Origin: Roseateles sp. DAIF2
GTDB taxonomy: Bacteria > Pseudomonadota > Gammaproteobacteria > Burkholderiales > Burkholderiaceae_C
Assembly: GCF_015624425.1 (NCBI RefSeq)
Contig: NZ_CP049919.1
Span: 806,001-870,000, forward strand
DNA length: 64,000 nt
Reading direction: 5' to 3'
Shown in pieces: positions 1 through 10,547 of this stretch (position 1 is the first letter of the stretch; each line of letters opens with the position of its first letter). Position numbers and translations under genes: made by a program. The notes beneath the pieces are model-generated. The model ran no database searches and was not told the DNA's origin. It saw nothing but the letters and a program-made list of their open reading frames with translations.

Positions 1-940
1 GGTCGAGGCGGCGCCCTGGCATCCCGGGCGGGCGGCGCTGCAGGACGAGGGGCCGCGCCGGCCCTGCCTGGAGGACTGGGTCTATCTGCGGCTCTACACC
101 GGGGCCGGCTATGCCGACCGGGTGCTGCGCGAGCATGTGGCGCCGCTGCTGCGCGAGGCGCAGGCGCAGGGCCTGCTGCGGACCTGGTTCTTCGTGCGCT
201 TCCTGGACGACTTCGAGCATCTGCGGCTGCGTCTGCAGGCGCGCGACCGCGAGACGCTGGTGCAGCTGCATGCGCGGCTGCAGGCGCGGCTGGCCGAGGC
301 GCAGCGCGCCGGCCTGCTGTGGCGGGTGCAGAGCGACGACTACCTGCCGGAGCTGCAGCGCTATGGCGGTGCGGCCGGCCTGGCGCTGTGCGAGCAGCTG
401 TTCGGCGTGGACTCGGACGATCTGCTGGCGCTGCTGGAGCTGGAGGCCGCGGAAGGCGAGGCGGGTGACGATGCGCCGCCGCGCTGGCTCTATGCGCTGG
501 CCTCGCTGGATGCCTATGTGCTGCAGCTCAGCCCGGACGCGGCGCGGCGCGAGGCGCTGCTGGAGAAGCTGGCGCGCCAGTTCCTCGACGAGCAGGCCGG
601 TGCCGCGGGCCGCTCCGCCGCGCTGGTGGCGGTGGGCGCGCGTTTTCGCGAGCTGCGCCGCGAGCTGGACGGGCTGCGGCAGGGCCGGGGCCGGCTGGGC
701 CTGTGGCAGCAGCAGCTGGCGGCCAGCGCGCGGCGCCGCGCGCCGCTGCTGGCGGCGCTGCGCGAGCTGCTGACGAGCTTGCCCGAGCCGCAGCAGGAGC
801 AGGTGCTGCAGAGCCTGCTGCACATGCATTGCAACCGGCTCGCGCCCAGCGACCCGCGCCGCCACGAGACTCTGCTCTACGACTTCGCGCGCCGGCTGGA
901 GCGGGCGCGGCAGGCGCGCAGCCCGGAGCTGGCGCGATGA
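1..940 (+). CDS. LanB-type dehydratase, C-terminal thiopeptide-type domain (5' partial)
   Basis: The reading frame is open from base 2, so the gene starts upstream and 312 C-terminal residues are visible. The segment has the pattern of the SpaB_C / thiopeptide-type bacteriocin biosynthesis domain: WVYLRLYTG near residue 26, WFFVRFLDDFEHLRLRL about 35 residues later, and YLPELQRYGG followed by CEQLF-DSDD. In class I lanthipeptide synthesis this domain removes glutamate from glutamylated Ser/Thr to give dehydroalanine/dehydrobutyrine. Its stop overlaps the cyclase start as ATGA, indicating translational coupling. Whether the N-terminal glutamylation domain is fused upstream or encoded separately cannot be seen. 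Confidence 0.88.
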   Translation, partial: VEAAPWHPGRAALQDEGPRRPCLEDWVYLRLYTGAGYADRVLREHVAPLLREAQAQGLLRTWFFVRFLDDFEHLRLRLQARDRETLVQLHARLQARLAEAQRAGLLWRVQSDDYLPELQRYGGAAGLALCEQLFGVDSDDLLALLELEAAEGEAGDDAPPRWLYALASLDAYVLQLSPDAARREALLEKLARQFLDEQAGAAGRSAALVAVGARFRELRRELDGLRQGRGRLGLWQQQLAASARRRAPLLAALRELLTSLPEPQQEQVLQSLLHMHCNRLAPSDPRRHETLLYDFARRLERARQARSPELAR

Positions 941-2151
941 GCGCCGCCGCCGAGGCCGCGCTGATCGAGGCCGTGCGCTGGCGCCTGCGGCGCGCGCTCG
1001 ACGGGGCCTGGACCGATGCCAGCTATGCCGGCGGGGCCGCCGGCCAACTGCTGGCCCTGGCGGTGCTGGAGCGGCAGACGCAAGGGCGCGACCTCGATGC
1101 CGACTGGCTGGCCGAAGCCGTGCTGCGCCTGCTGGAGCGGCTGCCGCGCTATCCGCATGGCCTGTTCCAGGGCGCGCAGGGCCTGCTGTTCGCGGCCTTG
1201 GAACTGGACCGCGTGTATGGCCTGGGCCTGGCCGAGGAGGCCGCGGCGGATGCCGACGAGCATCTGCTGGACTGCCTGCGCCATGACCGCGACCTGCCCT
1301 ATCACTTCGACCTGATCAGCGGCATCGGCGGGCTGCTGACCTATGCCGCCTACCGCGAGCAGGGCGGCAGCCGGCTGCCGCTGGTCGAGGCCTGCGTCGC
1401 GCGGCTGCGCGCGATGGTCTCGACGGCGGCCGAGGGCGAGCTGCACTGGTTCACGCCGCCGGCCTGGATCCGCGGCTTCCCGATGGGCAATGCCCATCCC
1501 GGCGGCTGCACCGACCTGGGGGTCGCCCATGGCCAGGCGGGCGTGCTGGCGGCGCTGGCCTATGCGCTCCAGGTGGCCAGGACCGGCCGGCCGGCGGCGC
1601 GCGAGCTGCTGCTGGGCGGGCTGCGCTATCTGCGGCGGCAGGAGCAGTCGAACGGGCATGCGCATTTCGGCACTGCGGCGGAATCCACGGATCCGGCGCG
1701 CTGTGCCTGGTGCTATGGCGACCTGGGCATGGCGGCGGCGCTGCGGCTGTCCGCCGTCGCGCTGGAGGACCCGGCGCTGGACGACTGGGCGGACCGGATG
1801 CTGGCGACCTTGTCCCGGCGGCCGGCGCAGCAGCTCGGCTTCATCGACGCCTGGCTGTGCCATGGCAGCGCCGGCTCGGCCTGGTTGATGCGGCAGCTGG
1901 CGCCGCGTCAGCTGGCGCCGCTGACCGCGCATTGCCTGCGGCTGCATCCGGTGGCGGGGGCCGACGGCCTGCTGGCCCAGCTGGAGCGCGCGCCGGCGCC
2001 CGAGCTCGGGCTGCTGGAGGGCTATGCCGGCCTGGCGCTGGTGCTGAGCGAGGGCCGCGCTGACGGCGGCCCGCCGGATCATGGCCCGCATTGGAGCCTG
2101 CCCTTCCTGGCCGGGCGCCGCGCGCTCGAGACCCACGTCGTTTTCTCGTGA
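937..2151 (+). CDS. LanC-family lanthionine synthetase (cyclase)
   Basis: A 404-residue protein starting MSAAAEAALIEA at the ATGA overlap with the dehydratase; a longer open frame upstream is discarded because the overlap start is coupled and begins the LanC fold. The LanC zinc ligands are present: Cys259 in WCYGD, and Cys308-His309 in LCHGSAG. A further conserved His198 lies in VAHGQAG. The repeated G-x-x-G motifs of the alpha/alpha barrel (GGAAGQLLAL, GIGGLLTYA, GQAGVLAAL, GDLGMAAAL, GSAGSAWL, GYAGLALVL) are visible. Known LanC enzymes add cysteine thiols to dehydrated Ser/Thr to form (methyl)lanthionine. The probable substrates are the two peptides encoded directly downstream. Confidence 0.92.
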   Translation: MSAAAEAALIEAVRWRLRRALDGAWTDASYAGGAAGQLLALAVLERQTQGRDLDADWLAEAVLRLLERLPRYPHGLFQGAQGLLFAALELDRVYGLGLAEEAAADADEHLLDCLRHDRDLPYHFDLISGIGGLLTYAAYREQGGSRLPLVEACVARLRAMVSTAAEGELHWFTPPAWIRGFPMGNAHPGGCTDLGVAHGQAGVLAALAYALQVARTGRPAARELLLGGLRYLRRQEQSNGHAHFGTAAESTDPARCAWCYGDLGMAAALRLSAVALEDPALDDWADRMLATLSRRPAQQLGFIDAWLCHGSAGSAWLMRQLAPRQLAPLTAHCLRLHPVAGADGLLAQLERAPAPELGLLEGYAGLALVLSEGRADGGPPDHGPHWSLPFLAGRRALETHVVFS

Positions 2152-2256
2152 ATCCGCTTGTGCGCCCGAAGGCTCGGCCGGGCCGGACGGTGCACAGGCC
2201 ACGGCGGCGTTGACCACGGTCGGGACTGCACGGAGCCCCGGCAGGTTGTGAACGGC

Positions 2257-2273
2257 GCCACCCCCGGGGTGGC
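2257..2273 (+). other. Short GC-rich hairpin between cyclase and first precursor gene
   Basis: GCCACCC and GGGTGGC form a 7-bp perfect stem around CCG in the 192-base gap between the cyclase and the first precursor gene. No T-run follows, so it is not a standard intrinsic terminator. It could stabilise a processed precursor mRNA or act as a partial attenuator; this is inference. Confidence 0.3.
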
Positions 2274-2343
2274 CGTGATCTGCCCCACCACGCATCCACG
2301 CGGCCTCAGGCCGCATGCATCTGTATGTCTATCTAGGAGACCC

Positions 2344-2625
2344 ATGAGCAAGTCCGATCGACTGAAGCTGACCACCACCTCGGTGCGCAGCCTGACTCCC
2401 GGTGAAGTGGACCAGGTCGCCGGCGGCGACGGTGGCCCCACCGGCAACACCTCGCTGTCCAACGCCTATTGCGGCGGCTGCCCGACCTACGGTCCCTGCG
2501 CGACGCAAACCTGCCCGCCGCCGGCCTCGGCCGAATGCGCGAGCAATGTCTGCGCGTCCAATGCCTGCGGCACGCAGAACAACTGCCTGCCTCCTTGGGC
2601 GACCAAGGGCTGGTGCCCCCGCTGA
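2344..2625 (+). CDS. Cys-rich RiPP precursor peptide 1 (lanthipeptide-like, GG leader)
   Basis: A 93-residue peptide starting MSKSDRLKL, chosen because AGGAGA at 2335-2340 sits three bases before this ATG. Residues 1-28 form a leader ending VDQVAGG, the double-glycine pattern cut by C39 peptidase transporters. The 65-residue core has nine Cys (43, 46, 52, 57, 65, 70, 75, 81, 91) and twelve Ser/Thr, with many Pro, Asn and Gly, and ends GWCPR. A CAS-N-x-C motif occurs twice (CASNVC, CASNAC). Its place between the cyclase and the transporter makes it the likely dehydratase/cyclase substrate. Core modification and bioactivity are unknown; I recognise no characterised lantibiotic in it. Confidence 0.85.
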   Translation: MSKSDRLKLTTTSVRSLTPGEVDQVAGGDGGPTGNTSLSNAYCGGCPTYGPCATQTCPPPASAECASNVCASNACGTQNNCLPPWATKGWCPR

Positions 2626-2727
2626 TGGCGCAGGGGCCGCCGGGGCATCCATCCCGGTGGACCCGCTCCTTCCCCACCCCCGGGGCACGGCCATCCGGCC
2701 CCGCCTTGAATATCCCATCTGAAAATC

Positions 2728-3006
2728 ATGAGCAAGAGTAAAAAACTCCAGCTGGCCACCACCTCGGTGCGCCAGCTCAGCCCGGACGAGCTGCAGGACG
2801 TGGCCGGCGGCTACACCTCGATCGCCGCCTGCGGCACCGATCCGACCAATCGCCCCTGCGTGACGGTCAACGCCGCCAGCGGCTGCCCGACCGGCGTGCC
2901 GCAGACCCAGGGCTGCCCGCCGGCCACCGGCGCCTGCGCGACCAATGCCTGTCCGCCGGTGTCGCGGACGCCGCGTTGCGGCGGCGGCGCCAGCGACCTG
3001 TGCTGA
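2728..3006 (+). CDS. Cys-rich RiPP precursor peptide 2 (lanthipeptide-like, GG leader)
   Basis: A 92-residue paralogue of the peptide encoded just upstream. The leader is the same length (28) and shares 18 residues, including MSKS, TTSVR and the terminal VAGG. The 64-residue core differs: eight Cys (35, 44, 53, 63, 70, 75, 84, 92) and thirteen Ser/Thr, with a CATNAC motif and a C-terminal Cys. Unlike the first gene, no clear Shine-Dalgarno sequence precedes the ATG (only a weak TGAAAATC), so its translation may be lower or depend on upstream ribosomes. The pair could be a two-component peptide or two independent products. Confidence 0.82.
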   Translation: MSKSKKLQLATTSVRQLSPDELQDVAGGYTSIAACGTDPTNRPCVTVNAASGCPTGVPQTQGCPPATGACATNACPPVSRTPRCGGGASDLC

Positions 3007-3013
3007 TGATGAT

Positions 3014-3031
3014 GAGGCGCTGACGCGCCTC
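3014..3031 (+). other. Stem-loop directly after precursor 2
   Basis: GAGGCGC and GCGCCTC form a 7-bp perfect stem with loop TGAC, starting eight bases after the precursor-2 stop. No T-run follows. In many lantibiotic operons a leaky hairpin after the structural gene makes precursor mRNA more abundant than export mRNA; the same role here is an inference. Confidence 0.4.
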
Positions 3032-3111
3032 GGGGCGGGCCGCCGGGACGCCGGTCATGCCCGCCCCATCTTCCTTAGCTTCAACCGACGCACGGAAAGA
3101 AAGGCCACGCG

Positions 3112-4344
3112 ATGCTGTTTCGCCAAGAGGCCCTGGACCATCTGCGCCATGGCGACCGCCAGGGTCAGGTCTTGCTGCGCAGCCCGCGCAGCTTCTGGTG
3201 GGTGTCGATCGGCGCGCTGGCGACCGGTCTGGCGGTGGTGCTGATGCTGTTCTTCACCAGCTACACGCAGCGCGCTCGGGTCAGCGGCCATCTGGTGCCG
3301 GACAAGGGCCTGGTCAACCTGGCCGCGCAGCAGCCCGGCGTGGTGGCCGAGGCGCTGGTCGGCGAGGGCAGCTCGGTGCGCCGCGGCCAGGCCCTGTTCC
3401 GCCTGCGGGCCGAGCGCCCGGCGCGCGCGGGCGAGCTGGCCCAGGGCGCGGTGCGCAGCCTGGAGCAGCAGCGCGCCAGCCTGCTGGCCGAGGCCGGGCG
3501 GCTGCAGGCGCTGGCCGATGCGCAGGCCCTGGCCCTGCAGCAGAAGCGGCGCGAGCTGGAGGCCGAGCTGCCGCGCGCCCGGGACGAGCAGCGGCTGCAA
3601 CGCCGCCGGCTGCAGTCGGCGCAGGAAGCGCTGGCGCGCTTCGAGGCGCTGCAGGGCACGGGCTTCGCATCCAGCCTGCAGGTGCAGCAGCGCGCCGATG
3701 ATGTGCTGGACCAGCAGGTGCGGCTGGCGGCGCTGGAGCGCCATGAGCGCGAGCTGCGGGCGCAGCTGGACGCGCTGGCGCTGGAGCTGCGCGCGCAGGG
3801 GCTGCGCGACGGCAGCCCGCGCTCCGCGGCGGAGCGGCAGCTGGCGGTGCTGCAGCAGGAGATCGCCGAGGCCGAGGGCCGGCATGAATGGGTGCTGAGC
3901 GCGCCGGTGGACGGCACCCTGACCGCGCTGCAGGCGCATGCCGGGCAGGCGGTCGCGGCGGGGCAGGTGCTGGCCCTGTTGCTGCCGGCCGGCGCCCAGC
4001 TGCAGGCGGAGCTGCAGCTGCCGTCCAGCGCGGCGGGCTTCGTGCGGCCGGGGCAGAAGGTGGCGCTGCGCTATGCCGCCTTCCCGTATCAGAAGTTCGG
4101 CCAGCACGAGGGGCTGGTGCTGGAGGTGTCGCGTGCGGCGCGGCAGGGCGGTAGTGCAGGCGGCGCCGGTGCGGAGCGCAGCTACCGGGTGCTGGTGCGG
4201 CCGCTGCAGCAGGCGGTGCAGGCCTATGGCCAGCCGGTGCCGCTGCAGGCGGACATGCAGGTGGAGGCGGATGTGATGCTGAGCGAGCGCAGCCTGATCG
4301 AGTGGATGTTCGAGCCGATGCTGGCCTTGAAGGGGCGCCTATGA
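3112..4344 (+). CDS. HlyD-family periplasmic adaptor of the peptide exporter
   Basis: A 410-residue membrane-fusion protein preceded by AAAGAAAGG. It has a short cytoplasmic N-terminus, one membrane segment at about residues 29-49, a first lipoyl/barrel strand region (QPGVVAEALVGEGSSVRRGQ), a long Ala/Leu/Gln/Arg-rich coiled coil at about residues 95-225, and a second lipoyl half (APVDGTLTALQAHAGQAVAAGQ). This is the layout of HlyD/CvaA adaptors for C39 ABC exporters. It probably bridges the inner-membrane transporter encoded next to an outer-membrane channel. Its stop overlaps the transporter start as ATGA. No TolC-type gene is present in this cluster. Confidence 0.88.
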   Translation: MLFRQEALDHLRHGDRQGQVLLRSPRSFWWVSIGALATGLAVVLMLFFTSYTQRARVSGHLVPDKGLVNLAAQQPGVVAEALVGEGSSVRRGQALFRLRAERPARAGELAQGAVRSLEQQRASLLAEAGRLQALADAQALALQQKRRELEAELPRARDEQRLQRRRLQSAQEALARFEALQGTGFASSLQVQQRADDVLDQQVRLAALERHERELRAQLDALALELRAQGLRDGSPRSAAERQLAVLQQEIAEAEGRHEWVLSAPVDGTLTALQAHAGQAVAAGQVLALLLPAGAQLQAELQLPSSAAGFVRPGQKVALRYAAFPYQKFGQHEGLVLEVSRAARQGGSAGGAGAERSYRVLVRPLQQAVQAYGQPVPLQADMQVEADVMLSERSLIEWMFEPMLALKGRL

Positions 4345-6455
4345 ATCTGATGCAGGGTTTGCAGTTCGGTTTCGGCCCGCGCCTGCCGATGCTGCAGCAG
4401 ACCGAGACCGCGGAATGCGGCCTGGCCTGTCTGGCAATGGTCAGCTGCTATCACGGTCAATGGCTGGAGCTGCCGGACCTGCGTCGGCGCCTCGATGCCT
4501 CGGCCAAGGGCGTGAACCTGGCCCAGCTGATGGGCTTTGCCGCAGAGATCGGCCTGGCGGCGCGCGCGGTGCGGCTGGAGCTGGAGGATCTGTCGCAGCT
4601 GCAGACGCCCTGCGTGCTGCACTGGGACATGAACCATTTCGTCGTGCTGCGCCGCGTGACCGGGCGCGGTATCACGGTGCACGACCCGGCGGTCGGCGTG
4701 CGCCGGCTGAGCCTGGCCGAGGCCTCGCGCCATTTCACCGGCGTGGCGCTGGAGCTGTCGCCGATGCCCAGCTTCGAGCGCAGCGAGCCGCGGCCGGCGG
4801 TGGGGCTGGGGCAACTGATCGGCCAGATCAGCGGGCTCAAGCGCTCGGTGGCCCAGGTGCTGATGCTGTCGCTGGCGCTGGAGATCCTGGCGGTGGTGGG
4901 GCCGCTGTTCCAGCAATGGGTGCTGGACGGGGTGATCGTGCAGCGCGACATGGACCTGCTGCAGGTGCTGGCCTTCGGCTTCGCGATGCTGCTGCTCTTG
5001 CAGCTGCTGATCGGCACGATGCGCAACTGGATGGTGATCTACTTCTCCACCCAGCTGAACCTGCAATGGGCATCCGGCGTGCTGAGCAAGCTGCTGCGCC
5101 TGCCGATGGACTATTTCATGCGCCGGCACCTGGGCGACGTGATGTCGCGCTTCGGCGCGATCCAGGACATCCGCCAGACCCTGACCTCGGCCGCGCTGAA
5201 TGCGCTGCTGGACGGGCTGATGGCCTGCGTGGCCCTGGTGATGATGGCGATCTACAGCCTCAAGCTGGCGGCGGTCACCCTGGCGGCGCTGGCCGTCTAT
5301 GTGCTGATCCGGATGATCTCCTACGCGCCGTTTCGCCAGGCCAGCGAGGAGCAGATCATCCATGCGGCGCGCCAGGACGGGCATCTGCTGGAATCGGTGC
5401 GCGGCGTGCAGTCGATCAAGCTGTTCAACCGCGAGAACGAGCGCCGCGCGCGCTGGCTGAACCTGCTGGTCAACACCAGCAATCGCGAGCTGGCGACGCA
5501 ACGCCTGGGGACGCTCTATCAGACGGCCAACGGCCTGGTGTTCGGCCTCGAGAACATCGCGGTGATCTATCTGGGCGCGCTCTTGGTGATGCGCGGCGAG
5601 CTGTCGATCGGCATGAGCTTCGCCTACGCCGCCTACAAGACGCAGTTCAGCAGCCGCATCAGCGCGCTGGTCGACCTGGCCTTCCAGGTGCGCATGCTGC
5701 GCATCCAGCGCGAACGCCTGGCTGACATCGTGCTCAGCGAGCCGGAGCCCGCCGGGGGCAGCGGCCTGCCGCCCGATGCGGTGCCGGACATCGAGCTGCG
5801 CCAGGTGCGCTTTCGCTACGCGGAGAACGAGCCCTGGGTGCTGGACGGCGTCAGTCTGCGCGTCGAGGCCGGCGAATCGGTGGCGATCGTCGGCCCCTCG
5901 GGCTGCGGCAAGACCACCCTGCTGAAGATCATGCTGGGCCTGCTGCGGCCGACCGAGGGCGAGATCCTGGTGATGGGCCGGCCATTGGCCTCGATCGGCC
6001 TGACGGCCTGGCGCGAATGCCTGGGCGCGGTGATGCAGGAGGACCAGCTGTTCGCCGGCACGATCGCCGAGAACATCGCCTTCGGCGCCGCCGAGATCGA
6101 TATGGAACTGGTGCGCCTGTGCGCGCACATGGCCGCGATCGAGGAGGATGTGCTGGCGATGCCGATGGCCTGGCAGACCCTGATCGGCGACATGGGCGCG
6201 GCCATCTCCGGCGGGCAGAAGCAGCGCCTCCTGCTGGCGCGCGCGCTCTACAAGCAGCCGCGCGTGCTGTTCCTCGATGAGGCGACCAGCCATCTGGACA
6301 CGCGCCGCGAGCAGGAGGTCAACGAGGCGGTCGGCGCGTTGCAGCTCACCCGTGTCGTGATCGCGCATCGGCAGGAGACGATCGAGCGGGCGGGGCGGGT
6401 GATACGGTTGCAGGGGATAGCTTCCCTGGCCCTGCCCGAGCGGAGGGGCGGTTGA
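4341..6455 (+). CDS. C39-peptidase ABC transporter (LanT/PCAT type)
   Basis: A 704-residue bifunctional exporter; the start is the ATG overlapping the adaptor stop, which places the peptidase at the N-terminus. The C39 triad is complete: Cys26 in ECGLACLAM, His99 in NHFVVL and Asp115 in HDPAVG. A six-helix membrane domain follows (about 160-450). The ATPase has Walker A GPSGCGKTT (518-526), signature SGGQKQR (623-629), Walker B LFLDEAT with Asp646-Glu647, and H-loop IAHRQ. Such transporters cut leaders after GG and export the core, matching the VAGG leaders of the two precursors. It ends the visible cluster. Confidence 0.95.
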   Translation: MNLMQGLQFGFGPRLPMLQQTETAECGLACLAMVSCYHGQWLELPDLRRRLDASAKGVNLAQLMGFAAEIGLAARAVRLELEDLSQLQTPCVLHWDMNHFVVLRRVTGRGITVHDPAVGVRRLSLAEASRHFTGVALELSPMPSFERSEPRPAVGLGQLIGQISGLKRSVAQVLMLSLALEILAVVGPLFQQWVLDGVIVQRDMDLLQVLAFGFAMLLLLQLLIGTMRNWMVIYFSTQLNLQWASGVLSKLLRLPMDYFMRRHLGDVMSRFGAIQDIRQTLTSAALNALLDGLMACVALVMMAIYSLKLAAVTLAALAVYVLIRMISYAPFRQASEEQIIHAARQDGHLLESVRGVQSIKLFNRENERRARWLNLLVNTSNRELATQRLGTLYQTANGLVFGLENIAVIYLGALLVMRGELSIGMSFAYAAYKTQFSSRISALVDLAFQVRMLRIQRERLADIVLSEPEPAGGSGLPPDAVPDIELRQVRFRYAENEPWVLDGVSLRVEAGESVAIVGPSGCGKTTLLKIMLGLLRPTEGEILVMGRPLASIGLTAWRECLGAVMQEDQLFAGTIAENIAFGAAEIDMELVRLCAHMAAIEEDVLAMPMAWQTLIGDMGAAISGGQKQRLLLARALYKQPRVLFLDEATSHLDTRREQEVNEAVGALQLTRVVIAHRQETIERAGRVIRLQGIASLALPERRGG

Positions 6456-6644: not shown

Positions 6645-7349
6645 ATGAGCGATCCCTTTGCGATCCGCATGCCACCCGACATCCGCTCGGTGCGGGTCGG
6701 CGAGCATCAGGTCGTCTTCATCGACGACTTTCTGGAGCATCCCGAGGCCCTGATCGAGGCGGCCACCCAGGCCCGCTTCGAGCCCTGCGCGGGCGCGGCC
6801 GAGCGCAAGGGCTACCCGGGCGTACGGGCGCCCGTGCCGACGGCCTACACCGAGAATCTGACGGAGCTGCTGGATCCGCTGATCCGGCTGAACTTCGGTG
6901 TGCCGGAGGAACTTACGCTGCGCAAGTCGCCATGCACCTTCTCGCTCACCAATGTGGCGCCGCAGGATCTGGGTCCTCTTCAGCGTGTGCCGCATTTCGA
7001 TGCCAGCACGCCGCATTTCATGGCCGTGCTGCTCTATCTCTGTGATGAGCGGCATGGCGGCACGGCCTTCTACCGGCACAAGCCCAGCGGCTTGCAGCAG
7101 ATCACGGCCGAGAAGCGCGATCGCTACGGCGAGATGATCTATGCGGAGGTCGAGCGCCGCCCGGCGCCACCGCGCTACTTCACCGACTCGGACGAGTGTT
7201 TCGAGCTGCTGGGCATCATGCCTGCGCGCTTCAACCGCCTGGTGATCTATCGGGGCAGCCTGCTGCATTCGGCCATCGTCAATCCGCAGGGCCTGAGCAG
7301 CGATCCGCGCCAGGGCAGGTTGACCATCAACACCTTCTACGATTTCTAA
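6645..7349 (+). CDS. DUF6445 family protein (possible Fe(II)/2OG-like fold)
   Basis: A 234-residue protein starting MSDPFAIRM; the open frame extends upstream but those residues look non-coding. It contains VPHFDAS (HxD) and a later LLHSAIVNP with GRLTINTFYDF, the spacing of an iron-binding HxD...H set followed by an Arg as in cupin-fold 2-oxoglutarate oxygenases. I assign it to DUF6445 from memory of the family. Members are often near Caulobacter-type TonB receptors, SapC-like proteins and flavin halogenases in Proteobacteria. Here it converges on such a receptor. The enzymatic activity is unproven. The SD is weak (GGAG about 15 bases upstream). Confidence 0.65.
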   Translation: MSDPFAIRMPPDIRSVRVGEHQVVFIDDFLEHPEALIEAATQARFEPCAGAAERKGYPGVRAPVPTAYTENLTELLDPLIRLNFGVPEELTLRKSPCTFSLTNVAPQDLGPLQRVPHFDASTPHFMAVLLYLCDERHGGTAFYRHKPSGLQQITAEKRDRYGEMIYAEVERRPAPPRYFTDSDECFELLGIMPARFNRLVIYRGSLLHSAIVNPQGLSSDPRQGRLTINTFYDF

Positions 7350-7498: not shown

Positions 7499-10141
7499 TC
7501 AGAACTTGACGCTCAGGCCCAGCTTGTAGGTGGTCTCGCCCTTGAAGCCCCAGGCCGGGAAGCCGGCCTTCAGCGGATCCTTGACGTTCGGGTTGTTGGC
7601 AGCGGCTGCACCGTACTGGACGTCATCTTCCTTGGTCAGATTGATGGCCTCGAAGGACAGCTTCAGGTTCTTGGTGATGTTCCAGCCCAGGCTGGCGTCG
7701 AGCGTGCCGTACGCATCATGCATGCGGTTGCCGTACCAGAAGGCGCCTTCGCGGATCATGTACTTGGAGCGCCAGTTGTAGGCCAGGCGACCGAAGTAGC
7801 TCTCGTTCTCGTAGTAGCCGACCAGGTTGACGTTGTGCTTCGAAGCCTGGGTGAAGACATTCAACAGGTCCAGATAGCTGCTGCCCGGGGCCTTGCCTTC
7901 GGTGAAGGTGTAGTTGCCGCTGACACCGAAACCGTTGTTGAAGCCGTGGTTGATCTGCAGCTCGATACCGCGGATGGTGGCGCCACCGGCGTTCTCGAAG
8001 CGTTGTACCGTCCAGTTGTCCTTCAGGGTCAGCGGATCGACCAGGCCCATCTGTTGGTTTTGCTGGACCCGCGCCACGACGAAGTTCGAAATGTCCTTCA
8101 GGAAGTAGGCGGCGGACACCATATTGCCCTTGCCGTAGTAGAACTCCAGGCCGAGATCGGCTTGGCTGGACTTCATTGGCTTGAGGCCGACATCACCGAA
8201 CGTCCAGGTTTCGTTGTCTTTCCGGTCGTCGTTGAAGCCGGACAAGGTCACCGGGAACATGTTGGCGAAGTTCGGGCGGGTGATGGCTTGCGACGCCGAG
8301 GCGCGCAGCACCAGATCCTTGCGCAGGTCGAAGGCGATGTTCAGGCTGGGCAGCACATCGTTGTAGGTCTTGTCGACGGTGGCCTTCGTCTTGGCGAAGC
8401 CTGTATTGGTGTCCCAGCCGTCCCTAGGCGACGTGTTGGTCTTGTCGATCGCGTAGCCGGTGCCCTTGACCTTGGTCGAGATGTAGCGCAGGCCGAAGTT
8501 GCCGCGCACGCCCTGAGTGTCGAACTCGAACATGCCGTAGACCGCGCGGTTCTTCTCGTTCAGCTCGCCGTAGCCCGAGCGATCCTCAGTCCAGCTGGCG
8601 ATGCTCTTGTGAGTGTTGTCCAGCATGGCGTTGACGTTGGCGCGCGGGATCGACCAGCCTCCAACGTCCACCGAACCGTCGAACAGCGAGCCGGTGGGCG
8701 CCGCGGTCATCGTGCTGTTCCAGATCGGGCGGAAGCTGCGCTTCTCAAAAGTGTGATCTGCCAGGCGAACGCCGGTCTTGAAGGCGCTGATGACGCCCCA
8801 ATCCAAGTCGAAGGTGGCGTCGAGCTGGCCGAACTTTTCCTTGTCCTTGTTCGGGCCTGCCGAGGTGGCCCAGGGTTGCGGCGCCAACTGCGACGGCAGG
8901 GCGCCCAAGCCCCACGACTGGTCGGTGCTGGGGTTGATCTGGATCTGTTTGCCGGTGGCGTCGATCGTGCCTTTCCACTCTGGGCGCTTGAAGGTGCCGT
9001 TCCAGGAATTGTCCTGGTAGTTGGCGGTGGCCGAGGTGCCGCCCGAGGCCTTGGTGGTGCCGATCACAAGGTCGAACTTGGCGTTGCCGAGCTTGTAATG
9101 AGCATCGGCGACGACGCTGTCCGAGTCCATGCTGGCGCCACGGGCCCATACCTGGAAGAACTTGTTGGTCGGGCCGGAGGTAGCGGAGCTTGTGCTGTGC
9201 AGGCAGATGCCGTTGGGGTTGGCCCCCGACGTCACGGCCGCATTGCGCTTGTCGCAGTTCGGGTCGTGCATCAGGTAGTCGCTGGAGTTGGAGCTGTTGG
9301 CGTCCAGCTTCATCTTCAGCACGTTCAGGCCCAGTTCCAGGCCTTCGACCGGGCGCGCTTGCAGCGCGACGTTGAAGGCGGTGCGCTTGCGCTCCTGGAT
9401 AAAGGCGGTGGGGGCCACATCGCCGTTCCAGCGACTGTCGGCCTCGACGCCGCGGCGGATGTAGTCGCCCTTGGAGATACCGGCGGCGACGAGCACGCCG
9501 AAGCTGCGGCCCTCATTGCGCCAGCTGTACAGGCCGGACAGGTCCTTCTCCGGATCGCTGATGGTGCCATCGCCGTAGCGCACGGTGCCGAAAACCGTGT
9601 TGGCCTTCAGGTCCAGCGGCTTGCGGGTCTTGACGATCACCGTGCCGCCGATGCCGCCTTCGGTCAGATTGGCCTGCGAGGACTTGTAGACCTCCATGCC
9701 ACCGATCATCTCGGCGGGCAGCAGCGAGTAGTTGAACGAACGGTCGATGTCGTTCTGGTCATACCAGCCGGTAGACGCGACGGTCTGGCCGTTCAGCGTG
9801 GTGTAGGTCATCTGCGGGTCGGTACCGCGGATCGACACGGCAGCACCTTGACCGAAGGCTCGACCCACAGAAATGCCGGGGATGCGACCCAGCGCCTGGC
9901 CGACGTCCGCGTCCGGCAGCTTGCCCACGTCCTCAGCGGACACGGCATCCACTACGGCGGTGGCATTCCTCTTGATGTTGGCGGCGGTTTCCAGCGACGC
10001 GCGGATACCGGTGATCACCACCTGGTCGAGCTGTGCCGCTTCGGGCTTCTTCTGTTCGGCCTGCTGCGCCTGGATGCTGCCGGCCGCTGCCAGCAGCGTG
10101 ATTGTCACGGCTGCCGCAATGGGGGTCTGTCTGACCTTCAT
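7499..10141 (-). CDS. TonB-dependent receptor, Caulobacter type
   Basis: An 880-residue outer-membrane receptor. It starts with a signal peptide (MKVRQTPIAAAV to about residue 25, cut near IQAQQ), then a TonB-box-like LDQVVITGIRASLETA. A plug domain follows with DVGKLPDADVGQALGRIPG, VSIRGTDPQ and GGIGGTVIVKTRKP. A long beta-barrel ends in a C-terminal Phe (YKLGLSVKF). AGGAG lies eight bases before the ATG. The KLPD/RIPGISVGR/TRKPLD pattern matches the Caulobacter-type receptors (TIGR01782 class), often linked to carbohydrate or other non-siderophore uptake. The substrate is unknown; no transport or catabolic genes are adjacent except the DUF6445 gene. Confidence 0.93.
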   Translation of the reverse strand: MKVRQTPIAAAVTITLLAAAGSIQAQQAEQKKPEAAQLDQVVITGIRASLETAANIKRNATAVVDAVSAEDVGKLPDADVGQALGRIPGISVGRAFGQGAAVSIRGTDPQMTYTTLNGQTVASTGWYDQNDIDRSFNYSLLPAEMIGGMEVYKSSQANLTEGGIGGTVIVKTRKPLDLKANTVFGTVRYGDGTISDPEKDLSGLYSWRNEGRSFGVLVAAGISKGDYIRRGVEADSRWNGDVAPTAFIQERKRTAFNVALQARPVEGLELGLNVLKMKLDANSSNSSDYLMHDPNCDKRNAAVTSGANPNGICLHSTSSATSGPTNKFFQVWARGASMDSDSVVADAHYKLGNAKFDLVIGTTKASGGTSATANYQDNSWNGTFKRPEWKGTIDATGKQIQINPSTDQSWGLGALPSQLAPQPWATSAGPNKDKEKFGQLDATFDLDWGVISAFKTGVRLADHTFEKRSFRPIWNSTMTAAPTGSLFDGSVDVGGWSIPRANVNAMLDNTHKSIASWTEDRSGYGELNEKNRAVYGMFEFDTQGVRGNFGLRYISTKVKGTGYAIDKTNTSPRDGWDTNTGFAKTKATVDKTYNDVLPSLNIAFDLRKDLVLRASASQAITRPNFANMFPVTLSGFNDDRKDNETWTFGDVGLKPMKSSQADLGLEFYYGKGNMVSAAYFLKDISNFVVARVQQNQQMGLVDPLTLKDNWTVQRFENAGGATIRGIELQINHGFNNGFGVSGNYTFTEGKAPGSSYLDLLNVFTQASKHNVNLVGYYENESYFGRLAYNWRSKYMIREGAFWYGNRMHDAYGTLDASLGWNITKNLKLSFEAINLTKEDDVQYGAAAANNPNVKDPLKAGFPAWGFKGETTYKLGLSVKF

Positions 10142-10547
10142 ATAACTGCTCCTCGATGTGGCCTGGATTCGTGATGGCCTGTTGCGACGCGGAACCTCAG
10201 CTCATACCGAACAGCGAACTGGCATGCGCCTGGTGCCTCTACTGGATCTGCAAATACAACCAATGCAAGGCCACTATACGTTGTGGTAGTGCCACTTTGC
10301 TACCAGTTGTGATACGCGTTTTCCCTGTTAACTGACGTGAAAACCACGCTCGTTGCCCCTGACTTGCAGGATCCTGGTTATGGACTGGTATTCAAAACTG
10401 GTCTGCACGCAGGTGTTGAATGCGGTCGAGCCGGGAGGGAAGGGTGGGCGCATGCGTTACACTCCCGCGCTTGCCTGCAATGACGGCTGCCAATCGCGTC
10501 TAGTGGGGCTTCCCCAAGCCGCTCGATAGCAAAGTTTGAAAAAAGCT
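10142..10547. promoter_or_regulatory. Non-coding region upstream of the receptor and the tRNA cluster
   Basis: No convincing ORF is seen in the 448 bases between the receptor and tRNA-Tyr. TGGTAG (10284-10289) and CTACCA (10300-10305) form a 6-bp inverted repeat with a 10-base spacer, and a minus-strand TATAGT (10278-10273) lies next to it. This could be a receptor promoter with an operator over its -35 region. No good -35 match was found. A and T runs are more frequent than in the neighbouring genes. Confidence 0.35.

Follow-up and report, generated by a model that had tools for sequence, protein, structure and literature searches.

A predicted class I lanthipeptide operon among the nag genes of a Kinneretia-type betaproteobacterium, with proposed control by NagQ

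Introduction

What would switch on a lanthipeptide operon that sits among genes for amino-sugar use, and what would its peptides be for? The question is raised by the beginning of a 64,000-nucleotide stretch (C1:806001-870000, the window) of the genome of DAIF2, a freshwater betaproteobacterium published as Kinneretia sp. DAIF2 (CP049919.1; PMC7909077), whose single contig runs to 6,010,585 bases. Six genes in the order lanB-lanC-lanA1-lanA2-hlyD-lanT form a predicted class I lanthipeptide operon within a nag locus, that is, among genes assigned to N-acetylglucosamine (GlcNAc), and this operon is probably controlled by the GntR-type regulator NagQ. The reading is taken from the sequence: which genes are present, that their motifs are intact, how Ser/Thr and Cys are spaced in the cores, where the locus lies, and which operator-like sites accompany it. 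In our view, the GlcNAc-locus context is the more interesting part of the finding.

The operon and its place in the nag locus

The sequence-only reading had described, at the start of the window, the C-terminal part of a dehydratase, a LanC cyclase, two precursors with Gly-Gly (GG) leaders, an HlyD adaptor, and a C39-peptidase ATP-binding cassette (ABC) exporter. All were confirmed at those positions (Table 1), and the ATGA overlaps proposed between LanB and LanC (937-940) and between HlyD and LanT (4341-4344) are present in the sequence. It had also left the length of LanB to an upstream extension: the gene starts about 2.25 kb beyond the window edge, so the operon begins outside the window, and the genome encodes the full-length protein with both domains. 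A truncated or decayed LanB is thereby rejected.

Upstream of lanB and on one strand lie nagK (BadF-type), a GntR/UTRA regulator gene, nagA, genes for SIS, GH3, and MFS proteins and for one protein that matched no Pfam family, and nagX (HGSNAT-type), the nag names being our reading from family and gene order. The regulator gene sits between nagK and nagA. The lan operon is placed between nagX and a DUF6445 gene, which is followed on the opposite strand by the gene of a TonB-dependent receptor.

LanB proteins 70-73% identical to that of DAIF2 are found in Pelomonas (L005), Paucibacter (L006), Rubrivivax (L008), and Mitsuaria (L009, counted with G030 as one genome), and the next in Janthinobacterium (L007, 55%). 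Since the first four keep all six genes in the order lanB-lanC-precursors-hlyD-lanT and both precursors have homologues, the cluster is more than a chance assembly. In all four, nagX lies upstream of lanB, with two extra genes in between in L005 and L009. PF14028 was found in two of the 100 genomes searched, the DAIF2 genome and G030. Five nag loci without lan genes were available for comparison: nagX, DUF6445, and the TonB receptor follow one another in G001 (same genus), G009, and G032, and in G002 (same genus) and G015 DUF6445 is missing, so that nagX adjoins the receptor gene. Judged by these gene orders, the lan genes behave as a cassette at one site, which some genomes have and others lack.

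Operator-like sites and the case for NagQ

An operator-like site precedes lanB in all five lan loci of the close group, reading GGTCTTAGATTGGTATC in DAIF2, GGTATTAAATTGGTATT in L005, L006, and L009, and GGTACTTAATTGGTATC in L008; related sites stand before nagK (GGTACTAGACTGGTATT) and before the TonB-receptor gene (GGTTATGGACTGGTATT). The pattern GGTNNTNNAYTGGTATY has four exact matches in the 6.01 Mb of the DAIF2 genome and its reversed control none. Three of the four fall in the nag locus, before nagK, lanB, and the TonB-receptor gene, and the fourth before a transporter-like gene. Seven related genomes yielded 17 further matches (one with the reversed pattern), so that the 21 matches of the eight genomes include eight before nagK, five before TonB-receptor genes, and two before lanB, the last two being those of both lan-bearing genomes among the eight. 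The six relatives without PF14028, which took no part in shaping the pattern, hold 12 matches, against one for the reversed pattern, and eight of the 12 precede nagK or a TonB-receptor gene. No site was seen between nagX and the next gene in any of the five lan-free nag loci. Because the site is absent from the lan-free interval and present before lanB, it has come or stayed with the lan genes.

PMC5343134 describes NagQ as a GntR-type GlcNAc regulator that occurs in alpha- and betaproteobacteria and in some gammaproteobacteria, with a tandem repeat as its motif, and adds that GlcNAc regulons extend to chitin genes. The operator-like sites share the tandem repeat with that motif, a likeness of description rather than of motif letters. 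Between nagX and the lanB site stands a hairpin that ends in a T-rich tail (L002 7417-7444, folding z -2.45), so the lan genes may form a transcript separate from the nagX side.

Several observations pull the other way. The lanB and nagK sites served to shape the pattern, and the TonB-receptor site of DAIF2 was known beforehand, so its match count speaks for specificity and is not a blind prediction. For six of the 21 matches in the eight genomes, no amino-sugar gene was assigned. Over L002 7300-13200, the hairpin is at chance level (one found, 0.8 in shuffles), and no sigma-70 consensus promoter was detected (0, against 0.2 in shuffles). The Janthinobacterium lan locus has no match to GGTNNTNNAYTGGTATY and no nag genes were seen there, which limits the link to the close group rather than extending it to the LanB clade as a whole. 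The unassigned matches, the Janthinobacterium cluster, and the missing consensus promoter would all suit an ordinary class I operon that lies in the nag locus by chance, is constitutive or answers to another regulator, and is preceded by a site that is a by-product of the locus. We regard such a coincidence as unlikely in view of the site's presence before lanB in five of five lan loci and its absence from five of five lan-free intervals, together with the location of three of the four DAIF2 matches in the nag-lan-TonB-receptor locus.

Two other patterns were tried and discarded: a longer one with two full TTGGTATT halves, whose two matches, with three mismatches each, equalled the two of its control, and a stricter operator pattern that matched the lanB site alone. 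The fourth exact match of GGTNNTNNAYTGGTATY (G000:C1:640975-640991) lies just before what we read from the open reading frame as an EamA-like transporter gene, and is possibly a chance occurrence or possibly a member of the regulon.

Integrity of the modification and export proteins

Both LanB domains are near-complete (PF04738, 2-649 of 649; PF14028, 1-253 of 255). Inactivating changes in the upstream part of the dehydratase, which the sequence-only reading had named as grounds for abandoning its proposal, were absent at the residues compared. R101, R105, and T107 of LanB align with NisB R83, R87, and T89, and R826, R828, E868, R871, and H1025 with NisB R784, R786, E823, R826, and H961, in a mapping counted from the alignment. 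These NisB residues we take to be catalytic. Across a 20-sequence alignment that includes the DAIF2 protein, the mapped residues from R101 to R871 are invariant and H1025 is nearly so, with one row shortened.

The AHG, WCYG, and CHG motifs of LanC align with NisC and are present in all seven LanC sequences, that of DAIF2 included; as WCYG and CHG are the zinc-ligand motifs, the earlier description of a zinc-ligand-bearing cyclase holds. LanC is thus a separate cyclase with the Cys and Cys-His zinc ligands and the acid His in place. Six of six LanT sequences keep the peptidase motifs ECG...C, NHF, and HDP and the Walker motif, and the closest solved structure by sequence is a peptidase-containing transporter (PDB 4ry2).

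Precursor cores and leaders

The spacing of Ser/Thr to Cys in the two cores was compared with shuffles in which every residue except Cys could change place. Ser or Thr stands at -2 to -4 of eight of the eight Cys in LanA2 (shuffle mean 4.41; fraction reaching this count 0.0020) and of eight of the nine in LanA1 (mean 4.57; 0.0056); at -3/-4 alone the counts are 7/8 (0.0041) and 8/9 (0.0003). No excess appears on the opposite side at +3/+4 (LanA2 2/8, 0.89; LanA1 1/9, 0.99), nor for LanA1 at +2 to +4 (5/9, 0.42). This direction of spacing, as read from the cores, is the one that lanthionine rings need. By a plain shuffle, eight of nine LanA2-type sequences, that of DAIF2 among them, reached 0.0036 or less, the shorter P0117 giving 0.053.

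The leaders read LxLxTx5L...GG, with Thr rather than Lys at the fifth motif position in nine Burkholderiales leaders, and some LanA1 homologues carry Gly-Ala instead of Gly-Gly at the cleavage site. Neither leader contains Phe, so the nisin-type FxLD motif is absent. A third precursor type with eight Cys, several CPPAT units, and a GG leader stands ahead of the LanA1 and LanA2 types in Pelomonas (L005 14458-14754) and Mitsuaria (L009 14446-14742), and none was seen in the DAIF2 cluster. A protein search with LanA2 over 399 genomes of the order found the DAIF2 genome only (1/399).

Taken with the complete LanB and the LanC motifs, the directional core spacing supports the class I lanthipeptide assignment first proposed, and the cluster is read as a class I operon on that sequence evidence. 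On the debit side stand the weakness of the three NisB-LanB alignment pieces (13.4, 23.6, and -1.9 bits), a mild Ser/Thr excess at +2 to +4 in LanA2 (6/8, 0.067), and weak spacing by plain shuffle in the LanA1-type homologues (0.006-0.135, eight sequences) and in two precursors of the third type (0.08). The leaders also fall below the NCBIfam leader cut-offs: for NF038153, LanA2 scores 16.6 bits and its homologues 18.1 at best against a cut-off of 22, and LanA1-type leaders match no family. LanA2-type leaders come close to TIGR04149, a leader family of radical-SAM ribosomally synthesised and post-translationally modified peptides (RiPPs), with up to 24.6 bits against 25, and the many Cys-Pro-Pro units could fit disulfides. 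The precursors might on these grounds be modified otherwise, as radical-SAM RiPPs or disulfide-rich bacteriocins, with LanB and LanC partly or not involved. We think this very improbable, given intact LanB and LanC, the directional spacing, and no radical-SAM family match in a Pfam scan of 16 genes of the locus, which spanned nagK to the TonB receptor.

A rough regular expression placed similar leaders in 16 of 79 related loci, which belong to several phyla; it missed the LanA1-type leaders of L006 and L008 and admitted some matches with a single Cys. Among L032-L080, GG leaders of the ETVR/ETLR type were noticed near LanB in loci from Planctomycetota, Acidobacteriota, Myxococcota, Paenibacillus, and actinobacteria; judged from these sequences, the leader type looks much wider than Bacteroidota.

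Proposed mechanism and the role of the peptides

We infer the following course for every chemical step, and equally for NagQ binding and its direction of control, for the inducer, and for what the peptides act on. Without amino sugar, NagQ would occupy the tandem sites before lanB, nagK-nagQ-nagA, and the TonB-receptor gene and so repress them; on uptake of amino sugar from chitin or cell wall, phosphorylated GlcNAc would free it from these sites. LanB would then glutamylate Ser/Thr of both precursors with Glu-tRNA as donor and eliminate the product, and LanC would add Cys thiols and so close short rings in the N-to-C direction, most of them S/T-xx-C or S/T-xxx-C. The C39 domain of LanT would cleave after Gly-Gly and the ABC/HlyD pair would export both peptides, passing through HlyD and a presumed outer-membrane channel. 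The plausible complete pathway of the sequence-only reading stands as far as the inner-membrane exporter. The products would most likely be antagonists of organisms on amino-sugar-rich material such as chitin or cell-wall debris.

A two-peptide lantibiotic acting on lipid II was considered and set aside, the nisin- and mersacidin-type lipid II-binding motifs TxTxEC and SxxxCTP(G/S)C being absent from both cores. Both cores are also near-neutral in charge, and no immunity-like gene was recognised among the 16 scanned genes, no dedicated immunity-gene search having been made. The LanA2 core is conserved across genera and is better conserved than its leader in nine of nine non-identical pairs, six of them distinct as L005 and L009 encode the same protein; between DAIF2 and L008, 57 of 64 core and 22 of 28 leader residues are identical, and nonsynonymous divergence lies well below synonymous divergence in core and leader alike. 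The conservation, the charge and motif results, and the want of an immunity gene would suit a peptide with a signalling, surface, or developmental role in place of an antimicrobial one, its LanA2 core being kept by a dedicated receptor or a structural role. For the target, this is the main rival to the antagonist reading; we hold it to be somewhat unlikely, as an antagonistic set is better suited by the LanA1-type cores, which are conserved at both ends and variable in the middle, by the third precursor in some relatives, and by the patchy presence of the cluster. The antagonist reading can be carried further, tentatively, to a weapon triggered by chitin or cell-wall sugar, in which feeding on GlcNAc polymers would be coupled to the release of a two- or three-peptide set encoded by a nag cassette that comes and goes across genera. 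If true, the antibiotics under DasR would have a counterpart among Gram-negatives, with chitin-walled fungi or competitors on chitin as possible targets.

Relation to known systems

The sequence-only reading had stressed that class I systems are far better known from Gram-positive bacteria, an argument now weakened by known class I lanthipeptides of Pseudoalteromonas and GG-leader class I precursors of Bacteroidetes. Neither class I lanthipeptides nor their presence in Proteobacteria is new. In Walker et al. 2020 (PMC7268733), Bacteroidetes class I precursors are described with LxLxKx5L...GG leaders and C39 proteases. The DAIF2 system shares with them LanB, LanC, a C39 protease, the LxLx-x5L spacing, and the Gly-Gly end, and differs in the Thr in place of Lys, the Cys-rich cores, the nag-locus setting, and the operator-like site. 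To our knowledge, the Cys-rich cores of LanA1 and LanA2 have no match. Pseudorosins A-C of P. flavipulchra S16 and PciA of P. citrea, according to PMC12819058 and PMC9993889, are heterologously produced gammaproteobacterial class I lanthipeptides; the likeness lies in class and in proteobacterial origin, and the LanB of another Pseudoalteromonas genome (L068) is 26% identical to that of DAIF2. With the nisin enzymes NisB and NisC (PDB 4wd9 and 2g02) there is a sequence relation and an alignment of catalytic and zinc residues, whereas the DAIF2 system lacks the FxLD leader, has a bifunctional C39 exporter, and shows no LanP-, LanFEG-, or LanI-like gene among the 16 Pfam-scanned genes, short unannotated open reading frames lying outside that scan.

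DasR is reported to exert GlcNAc-responsive GntR control of antibiotics in Streptomyces (PMC4398421 and others). NagQ and DasR regulons resemble the present case in a GntR-family GlcNAc regulator with targets beyond amino-sugar catabolism (antibiotics in Streptomyces), whereas the target predicted here, a lanthipeptide operon, lies physically within a Gram-negative nag locus. A paper on Lysobacter (PMC13153030) reports, by its title, GlcNAc regulation of a siderophore, so that a secondary metabolite under GlcNAc control is not in itself new among Gram-negatives. Among the matches listed in a search of open-access literature by titles and abstract beginnings, no report tied lanthipeptides or bacteriocins to GlcNAc, chitin, or NagQ. 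Within the same bounds, the precursor family, the nag-locus place across genera, and the predicted NagQ control are new.

The genome context suggests a trigger, GlcNAc acting via NagQ, that is within reach of simple tests in an environmental strain, by supplying the sugar and removing a gene. Such a trigger offers an idea of when the peptides are made, and a product search under GlcNAc or chitin could be directed at two Cys-rich peptides. The cross-genus conservation of the LanA2 core makes it a defined target for structure work.

The host locus and minor observations

Table 1. Features of the lan operon and its borders (window positions unless prefixed C1 or L002)
Feature	Position	Strand	Details
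LanB, class I dehydratase, C-terminal part	1..940	+	PF14028, 2.2e-54
Full lanB gene	C1:803749-806940 = L002 7749-10940		1,063 residues; start codon chosen by us
LanC cyclase	937..2151	+	404 residues; PF05147, 2.2e-26
LanA1 precursor	2344..2625	+	93 residues; 9 Cys in 65-residue core; leader end VAGG
LanA2 precursor	2728..3006	+	92 residues; 8 Cys in 64-residue core; leader end VAGG
HlyD-type periplasmic adaptor	3112..4344	+
LanT, C39 peptidase/ABC permease/ATPase	4341..6455	+	704 residues
DUF6445 gene	6645..7349	+	Downstream border of lan genes
TonB-dependent receptor of nag locus	7499..10141	-
Tandem operator-like site	10376..10392	+	GGTTATGGACTGGTATT, upstream of TonB-receptor gene
Operator-like site before lanB	C1:803529-803545		Outside window
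Operator-like site before nagK	C1:794379-794395		Outside window

Two neighbours were considered as tailoring enzymes and rejected. DUF6445 stands next to nagX in three of the five lan-free nag loci (G001, G009, and G032), where it also adjoins the TonB-receptor gene, and is therefore a gene of the host nag/TonB-receptor locus, outside the peptide pathway. A tryptophan-halogenase family gene lies directly 5' of lanB in L005 (7918-9447) and L009 (7946-9472), the Pfam assignment covering L005 only; a look-alike, recognised by eye, occurs in the nag locus of lan-free G002, which makes the gene a probable TonB-receptor partner. A recent foreign origin by base composition was likewise rejected, the six lan genes (GC 68-75%, third-position GC 0.85-0.94) being like their five neighbours (65-72%, 0.85-0.96).

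The GH3 (nagZ-like) gene at L002 2340-3827 is 64-66% identical to its counterparts in same-genus L115 and L116 and 79% to those in G009 and G015, and the MFS gene beside it is 89-91% identical within the genus. Because of this within-genus difference between adjacent genes, the nag locus looks, from sequence identities, like a recombination mosaic.

In Janthinobacterium L007 (9893-15319), two reading frames share the LanB sequence between them and that of HlyD covers 186 residues only, from either decay or sequencing error. The short precursor of this locus resembles the first half of the LanA2 core.

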